DNA of 36,576 bases from Methanosarcinaceae archaeon (lineage in GTDB: Archaea; Halobacteriota; Methanosarcinia; Methanosarcinales; Methanosarcinaceae): the NCBI GenBank assembly GCA_003565715.1, contig PXAV01000098.1, positions 1 through 36,576 on the forward strand, written 5' to 3'. The notes beneath the pieces were generated by a model that ran no database searches, was not told the origin of the DNA, and saw only the letters and a list, made by a program, of their open reading frames with translations. The stretch's first letter is position 1; every line of letters starts with the position of its first letter. Both the position numbers and the translations under genes were made by a program. Of the stretch, positions 62 through 1,207 are shown piece by piece.

Positions 62-393
62 TAAATACCATACCTTTGCTTCATACACCTATGTAAAACC
101 ATATATAATCTGAAAAAAACAAATCCTTCCGTTAAACCTGTTTTTGAAGAATCTTTCAGCAATAAGGACATACCAGAAGGATATATCATACTTGTATAGG
201 TCTTACTCATAATGAGGATATATGCTTTACCATAGCATGTCTTTTTGTCACCCATCGAAATAATATGCCAAGTTCTTTAAAGAAAAGATTGAATCCTCCC
301 GATTGAAATTACAATACCGTTTTAAAATATGACTATATGAGATATTGCAATTGCGTTAGAAAAAACAGGAACGATACAATTTTTAAGAAATCA
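62..393. other. AT-rich intergenic region, upstream of the corrinoid-type gene
   Basis: I see no convincing gene here. A 64-codon minus-strand frame covers most of it but lacks a recognisable product or binding site. The region probably holds the promoter and leader of the minus-strand gene starting at 61. Long 5' leaders are known for methyltransferase genes in Methanosarcina, so a long leader here is plausible but not shown. Confidence 0.4.
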
Positions 394-600
394 TTTATAA
401 ATACCAGCAACAACACATGGATAGTTTGTATGGGACATTGTTCCCATTACAATGCGTGCGGGTGGAAATGGGGGTTTCTCAGCACACATGAGCGTGGAAG
501 CTGGTCGTTCAAGAAAGGAGAGTGGAGTTACTCCGTTTGTAAGGGAAGAAGGAAGGATGGTGCATATACCCCATCCTTCTTTCTGACCAAAAAAAATGAA
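394..600 (+). ncRNA. Putative structured RNA or leader with its own promoter
   Basis: A TATA box TTTATAAATA at 394-403, preceded by a purine-rich BRE-like GAAA, predicts transcription from about 425-430. The following stretch is more G-rich than its surroundings and folds well by eye. ATGGGA (430-435) pairs with TCCCAT (442-447). Alternatively CATTGT (436-441) pairs with ACAATG (449-454), which excludes the first hairpin. A GGAG-TTA-CTCC hairpin sits at 524-534. A 14-bp stem with one G-U pair (547-560 with 571-584, 10-nt loop) closes the element. The stem is followed by an A-run, not a T-run, so it is not a classical terminator. A zinc-ribbon ORF begins 55 nt later, so this may be that gene's leader. 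It does not resemble RNase P or SRP RNA. Confidence 0.4.
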
Positions 601-638
601 TAATAGCATTTGAAGAGCTAAAGGATTTGGGGATATAT

Positions 639-779
639 ATGGGTCTGTTGAAAAGATGTCCAAGATGTCAAAATGAATTGTACACAGATGATTCCATAAA
701 TATGCAAGTATGTAAAGTATGTGCTTACTGGACAAAGAAGAACACTGCAAGATTAGGGTCGATGATGTTCTACGAGTGA
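639..779 (+). CDS. Small zinc-ribbon protein (46 aa)
   Basis: This short gene starts at ATG 639 and reads MGLLKRCPRCQNELYTDD in its first 18 residues. Two CxxC pairs (Cys7/Cys10 and Cys25/Cys28) form a four-cysteine zinc-ribbon or rubredoxin-like knuckle, followed by a basic stretch and a short tail. A purine-rich GGATTTGGGG lies before the start. It follows the structured element at 394-600 and is probably on the same transcript. Small zinc-finger proteins of this type are common in methanogens and are usually of unknown role; nucleic-acid binding or a metal-dependent contact are both possible. The regular paired cysteines argue against a chance ORF. Confidence 0.6.
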   Translation: MGLLKRCPRCQNELYTDDSINMQVCKVCAYWTKKNTARLGSMMFYE

Positions 780-1207
780 TTAACATGGGGAAAGAAAGAA
801 GGTCAATGTCATGATCGAAACATACATGGTTATCGTCTTTATTTTTTATAGTAAGAGTAATATTCAGAGGGATTTTTTAAAATTTTGAACTATTATAATA
901 ATAAAAAGTAATAATTATGGTGATTATAAGAAAAAATCAGTTTTCTAAAGAAAAGAAACATAATCCACAGTCTTTATTTTAAGTTTTGAACTTAAATTAT
1001 AATACAATGATTAGCTAGAATAGCTTCTTTTGAAGGGATAGATATAAATATAATCCTTGCCGTTCATAGGGTGCTTTAAGAGTTTGAAACTAATTTGCTG
1101 AATTATAAGTTTAGATAGTATTACTTTCACCGTATTTACTGTTTTTTCGTATTTTCAACCAAATGGTTATATTTCTTTTTAAGCTGATAAATTAGGAAGT
1201 GAAATAT
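780..1207. other. AT-rich intergenic region before the TRAM gene
   Basis: No gene is supported. The stretch contains a perfect 8-bp palindrome TTTAAGTT-ttg-AACTTAAA at 978-996, which could be an operator or a weak hairpin. TTATATTT near 1168 is a plausible TATA element for the TRAM gene. Confidence 0.4.

Follow-up and report, generated by a model that had tools for sequence, protein, structure and literature searches.

A candidate family of structured leader RNAs with a shared palindromic operator upstream of zinc-ribbon microprotein genes and other small genes in Methanolobus and a second methanogen genus

Between a promoter and the gene of a 46-aa zinc-ribbon (ZnR) microprotein, the genome of a probable Methanolobus carries a long stretch rich in hairpins, which raises the question whether this stretch is the leader of the ZnR transcript, an RNA in its own right, or no RNA element at all. 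The window, by which we mean the whole stretch of 36,576 nucleotides that was analysed, corresponds to contig C31 in a genome of 2.06 Mb; on its forward strand a promoter is followed by a hairpin at the 5′ end, a second, G-rich one, a terminal hairpin with a 14-bp stem and the ZnR gene. The TATA box TTTATAAATA is read directly at 395-404, and its position predicts an RNA start near 425. The 5′ hairpin SL1 (427-451), which contains the directly legible hairpin ATGGGA..TCCCAT at 430-447, is given by the minimum-free-energy (MFE) fold, the predicted ensemble and the covariation of its homologues. SL2 (452-489), a stem with the conserved core GCGGGTGGAAATGGGGGTTTCTCAG (458-482) and an inner hairpin with a GGGG loop, is defined by homologues, covariation and a covariance model (R1, below). 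A small hairpin at 520-533, found in the MFE fold, includes the motif AGUGGA (521-526), and the terminal hairpin (543-588, with its 14-bp stem at 547-560/571-584) is drawn from the fold and from covariation over 19 chosen loci. The ZnR gene (639-779, with the pattern CPxC..CxxCxYWT), recognized as an open reading frame with homologues, has its ATG at 639, 55 nt past the end of the 14-bp stem at 584. The first-pass annotation had placed the TATA box, the 430-447 hairpin, the 547-584 stem and the ZnR start correctly, and its description of a G-rich element in an AT-rich setting, ending in a 14-bp stem with a 46-aa zinc-ribbon gene 55 nt on, agrees with our reading: the G+C content of the element reaches 0.51 in 70-nt blocks, against 0.26-0.30 immediately upstream.

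Folding energy says little about the nature of this element. The region 394-600 folds with -64.4 kcal/mol and a z-score of -2.99, a value equalled by 2 of 200 dinucleotide shuffles, and the region 425-590 gives a z-score of -2.87, with an MFE structure made of SL1 (427-451), SL2 (452-489) and the hairpins at 520-533 and 543-588. Taken alone, the 5′ 104 nt (425-528) are no better than their shuffles (z-score of -0.28, with 70 of 200 shuffles equally good), so that the excess found by this check, which the first-pass annotation had proposed, must be attributed to the terminal hairpin. The opposite strand of the element reaches a z-score of -4.79, lower than that of the forward strand, and energy cannot therefore assign the strand of the RNA. 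Folding energy is thus weak evidence for a structured RNA, and the strong evidence is comparative. That the hairpins arose by chance in an intergenic patch rich in G, as the stability of the 5′ part would allow, is hardly credible, since it is contradicted by the covariation, the multi-copy homology and the co-occurrence with an operator that are described below.

The predicted ensemble also bears on the mechanism that had been proposed first, a switch between two mutually exclusive hairpins at 430-447 and 436-454. In the ensemble of 425-590 the pairs of the former have probabilities of 0.49-0.996; the latter can be drawn, but its pair probability is 0.000 in the window, and the switch was rejected because the alternative hairpin is not populated. 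A small-molecule riboswitch or an RNA thermometer governing a stress-type gene set would explain why a single structured core is found in front of small genes of different kinds, and one of the hosts is named psychrotolerans; we nevertheless consider it unlikely, since besides the unpopulated hairpin the conserved unpaired sequence is short and the downstream genes point to no metabolite. For a riboswitch in the small-molecule sense, nothing speaks positively.

The comparative evidence comes from a family of homologous RNAs. Plain BLASTN with the element found, in the 111 genomes of the taxonomic family, only the window and a second copy in the same genome (contig C15), and gave no match in plasmids; in Methanolobus sp. 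M17C-73-03, a third copy (L004) stands directly 5′ of a ZnR gene. Fifteen sequences aligned without structure (alignment A2) served as the basis of the covariance model R1, which covers SL1 and SL2. Searching the 111 genomes with R1 gave 55 matches at E≤0.1 in 33 genomes, and the 20 with E<1e-7 (15 training sequences and five new ones) lie in Methanolobus and in a second genus, g11, whose named members are of the Methanomethylovorans type. Across the order, 26 of 185 genomes gave a match at E≤0.01 under strict filters, which may miss weak matches, and E<1e-7 was again reached in these two genera only. The window itself, whose copy is a training sequence, matches at 409-504 with 44.5 bits, the runner-up within it scoring 11.7. 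Three R1 copies are present in this genome (C31, C15 and C116), together with a fourth operator-led ZnR leader (C158) that lacks a clear SL2 core; R1 found no match in L158, L159 and L183. As a separate observation, three tandem copies of a 66-bp repeat, potentially able to fold, lie at L002:2247-2444 (G000:C15), 5′ of a gene that by eye resembles hisG.

Covariation within the family exceeds that of controls. In A2, 84.9% of the cells are paired versus 76.5% after shuffling, a level reached by none of 500 shuffles; 10 of the 15 pairs (eight in SL1, two in SL2) have changed on both sides, as in 6 of 500 shuffles, and A2 scores 0.448 for covariation, where shuffled alignments score 0.285 and slid partners do not exceed 0.241. 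The 34-match alignment A4, which leans to R1, has 79.8% of its cells paired, a score of 0.361 and 11 pairs with double changes, a number reached by 38 of 500 shuffles. By eye, the SL2 core is kept despite a length difference of 1 nt. A covariance model from relatives, which had been suggested at the outset, thus shows pairs that covary. A coding origin, through the reading frames 337-603 (+), 452-586 (+) or 391-786 (-), was rejected for the core, since any given frame is open in at most 5 of the 15 core sequences; one pattern match (L005, from G083) was discarded because its flanks resemble, by eye, zinc-ribbon coding DNA. The earlier failure to match the element to a known RNA class was borne out: no Rfam 15 family reached its gathering cut-off in the window, in 14 related loci (one tRNA only) or in 13 further loci, and at E≤5 the best candidate in window positions 300-900 was ar35, with 23.2 bits versus a cut-off of 45. 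To our knowledge, few families of structured leader RNAs are known in archaea. Of the original proposal of a structured, riboswitch-like leader, the structured leader is consequently supported, by its ZnR-linked homologues, its covariation and its lack of an Rfam counterpart, and the switching part is not.

Substitution patterns indicate the strand. G-U pairs outnumber A-C oppositions 18:6 in SL1 and 21:5 in SL2 of A2, 34:21 and 45:7, respectively, in A4, and 17:5 in the terminal hairpin; the excess in all three hairpins favours the forward strand as RNA, although the G-richness of SL2 may inflate its ratio. These counts also speak against a promoter-proximal DNA element, in which a protein would sit on the G-rich duplex and no RNA would be involved. 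Such an element would suit the closeness of the members to the same operator and TATA box, but it is very unlikely given the G-U excess on the transcribed strand (only 34:21, however, for SL1 in A4) and a terminal hairpin that in the window begins more than 50 bp past SL2.

The operator is an AT-rich palindrome upstream of family members, with the consensus GAAATTATAAYGSCRTTATAATTT. With at most three mismatches it was found in 26 of the 111 genomes, against seven matches in six genomes for a reversed control pattern. When 51 of the 55 R1 matches were tested (G039:C4, G075, G016 and G063 being left out), 32 had an operator with five mismatches or fewer, the other 19 had at least eight, and none fell between; all 27 of the best matches (E≤4.8e-4) carry it upstream with at most five. 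R1 matches without operator, whose E-values start at 5.2e-4, were excluded from the members, and 10 of these 19 represent a separate G-rich element. The R1 match of G063 adjoins an operator with three mismatches; the best match in genus g13 (probably Methanosarcina), with an E-value of 1.7e-3, has none. A C-free, G-rich stretch that hardly varies, TTGGGGAGTGGGGGTTAGTGTGGGAGT, with a stem of the GTGAGCGGG/CCCGCTCAC type closing it in most cases (e.g., G000:C156:425-451, L207), was noticed in 34 of the 111 genomes (26 of 27 Methanolobus, 6 of 6 g11, 2 of 3 g12), usually once per genome and in at least two genomes 5′ of a gene that by eye is Sua5/TsaC-like; it is similar to the SL2 core, and a G-quadruplex could form in it.

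The spacing between operator and promoter is nearly fixed. Of the 34 R1 matches, 31 were surveyed (L089, L114 and L157 left out): 25 of them have the operator 32 bp and five have it 30 bp before a TATA-like box, the window being the one exception. The TATA pattern of this survey was permissive and matched other positions too; the downstream distances used in it were nominal values where a locus is gene-less or non-ZnR, and an approximation at L088. In the window, a pattern search found a decayed copy, GAAATTACAATACCGTTTTAAAAT, at 305-328 (+), with five mismatches to GAAATTATAAYGSCRTTATAATTT and 65-66 bp before the TATA box. It is the only site with five mismatches or fewer in the 36.6 kb, and 20 block-shuffled windows gave two such sites in total. 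Judged from the family comparison, this palindrome, which lies outside the span first annotated, probably belongs with the element. A possible second copy, GATATTGCAATTGCGTTAGAAAAA, very degenerate with eight mismatches, can be made out by eye at 341-364 (+), where it would have the canonical 30-bp spacing. Elsewhere, at G044:C1:393793-393814 (L167, L187), a variant of the operator stands before an intergenic stretch rich in hairpins, and similar sites occur in G047, G049 and G056. Genome G044, which may be M. psychrophilus R15, has no R1 match at E≤0.1 and just this kind of site, a variant with three mismatches.

Inspection of the DNA upstream of 60 of the ZnR matches listed located the long leader in Methanolobus and g11, and in other species, too, the homologous RNA lies directly 5′ of ZnR. 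Other genes also follow the module. Behind it we found ZnR-A, often succeeded by a second zinc ribbon, ZnR-B (ZnR-B alone at L124), phasin-like proteins of 113 aa (L108, L109), DUF1328 proteins (L111-L115), a PRC-barrel-type protein, winged-helix proteins, a secreted protein and others. Gene names were given by eye except DUF1328, which was checked in Pfam for L113; the phasin-like protein had no Pfam match at cut-off. The set appears to be of a stress type, and the hosts include M. psychrotolerans YSF-03, M. bombayensis DSM 7082 and M. vulcani PL 12/M. At 1873-2022 the window also holds a 49-aa open reading frame (MGWKLSRRTHQRF..) with no operator nearby, whose likely homologue in L160 sits behind an operator-led leader.

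In ZnR loci the leader has a regular end. For the terminal hairpin we aligned 19 hand-chosen spans out of 31 leaders and predicted the structure from this very alignment; 153 of 171 cells are paired in it, and double changes occur at 7 of the 9 pairs. The choice of spans, the shared alignment and several rows shifted against the others (the window copy, L088, L125 and L087) make these counts approximate. In 15 of the 18 loci of the ZnR class, the distance from the end of a strong hairpin to the ZnR start is 34-62 nt; the exceptions are L082 (no terminal hairpin), L171 (a weak one) and L124 (a hairpin ending 31 nt before the gene). This regular spacing suggests a leader.

Three copies, however, have no recognisable intact gene behind them (C15/L088, L107 and L118), the C15 copy preceding what by eye is a decayed ZnR-B, and all three retain the operator, SL1, SL2 and a late hairpin. 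They fit equally well a stand-alone, trans-acting small RNA that would run from about 425 to the terminal hairpin or beyond and would pair with or bind its targets through the GGGG loop or the AGUGG motifs, ZnR being only a neighbour or reached by read-through; they weigh against the reading as a ZnR leader. The stand-alone RNA also has a possible precedent in the cold-induced intergenic sRNAs, with a common motif upstream of their promoters, that are reported for Methanolobus psychrophilus (PMC5378194). We regard it as a serious though less probable rival, given that most copies lie immediately 5′ of a gene on the same strand, that the ZnR class has its regular hairpin-gene spacing and that, by eye, the window has no TATA box between hairpin and gene and the T-tracts behind the hairpin are inconsistent.

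What distinguishes the ZnR leaders is a short repeated motif. Outside the core, GUGGA occurs 23 times in the 19 ZnR-linked or gene-less leaders, where 5.2-5.5 would be expected, and is present in 15 of them. In the 12 other leaders (11 non-ZnR ones and L171, before ZnR-A), GTGGA occurs once versus 3.3 expected and AGTGG three times versus 3.1; a role of AGUGG in non-ZnR leaders was therefore rejected, and the motif goes mainly with ZnR genes and gives no hint of a co-control of the others. Upstream of ZnR genes without operator, AGTGG is likewise frequent (23 of 42 versus 33 of 212 control genes, p 2.7e-7), part of which may be ribosome-binding sequence, since 9 of 38 GTGG[AG] sites are no more than 15 nt away from the start; GAGTGG alone is not significantly enriched there (8 of 42 versus 19 of 212, p 0.095). 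Together, the motif enrichment and the hairpin spacing favour a leader bound by a protein, with ZnR as the candidate binder in its own leaders.

ZnR itself has homologues in 96 of the 111 genomes. The protein of the window stays below the Pfam cut-offs, and its AlphaFold2 model, of modest quality (mean pLDDT of 71.5), has no match in the PDB at E 0.001; polymerase-associated zinc ribbons are among the structures that it weakly resembles. The ZnR locus of the window is adjoined by a stand-alone TRAM-domain gene (1199-1411, Pfam PF01938), and a TRAM-like gene apparently also lies beside the C158 locus, by eye. At several loci among L042-L056, from another Methanolobus group, a different short structured leader (TGTCAGGATG..GTTCCC..GGGTGGGGAAC..TTTCCTGA) is found 5′ of ZnR genes with probable TTG starts.

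Known systems offer partial parallels. In CsrA/CsrB circuits, repeated GGA-containing motifs in a multi-hairpin RNA combine with an autoregulated leader and decoy RNAs. The leader family resembles them in its repeated GGA-containing motifs, its multiple hairpins and a possible combination of autoregulated leader and decoys; it differs in its motif, AGUGG(A/G), which is not clearly in loops. A short motif repeated above expectation is indeed found in the 19 ZnR-linked or gene-less leaders, but in predicted ensembles the GTGG motifs are unpaired no more often than the average of the leaders (0.34 versus 0.39). L7Ae autoregulates through its own leader. The regulation of archaeal mRNAs by L7Ae (PMC5539422) likewise sets an archaeal RNA-binding protein on structured RNA, the protein being different from ZnR. 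The one-domain zinc-finger micro-proteins of Haloferax volcanii (PMC6562870) are similarly tiny and, by the title, stress-related, and the parts of that report seen mention no structured leader family; sRNA154 and sRNA162 of M. mazei (PMC11456600) are regulatory RNAs of a related methanogen. A further parallel comes from M. psychrophilus R15, for which nine conserved sRNAs induced by cold are reported, with a 'cold box' upstream (PMC5378194); they share with our family the genus, the occurrence of several conserved intergenic RNAs and one common motif upstream of promoters. The likeness is one of description, and the leader family may be partly known already as the cold-box family. In the titles and abstract beginnings of the open-licence literature searched, no description of this leader RNA or of its operator was found.

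We give about an even chance to the reading that the ZnR transcript begins with this element as its long, structured 5′ leader, one of a multi-copy leader family of Methanolobus and g11. At the level of sequence, the family combines a homologous SL1 and SL2 core, a terminal hairpin that covaries in the ZnR class, an operator at fixed distance and varied downstream genes. On this reading as a leader, a transcription factor would bind the palindrome, perhaps under stress, and RNA polymerase would then transcribe the leader; a trans-acting factor would bind the G-rich core and, in ZnR leaders, also the repeated AGUGG(A/G) motifs, and once bound would set translation or read-through beyond the terminal hairpin. 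Copies without a gene might act as decoys or as regulators in their own right, or they might be relics. For the factor that would bind ZnR leaders, the ZnR microprotein itself is the likeliest, though unproven, candidate; the AGUGG repeats of these leaders, which the other leaders do not share, hint at such an autoregulation. Rather doubtful is the fuller scheme in which ZnR microproteins would bind AGUGG(A/G) RNAs, autoregulate through their own leaders and be titrated by the gene-less copies, the wider family forming one palindrome-controlled gene set whose SL2 core would be read by another factor. Together, these observations place one RNA module and one palindromic site at fixed spacing before several kinds of small genes in methylotrophic methanogens, and they make the gene set, the predicted transcription factor and a possible function of orphan zinc-ribbon microproteins directly testable.
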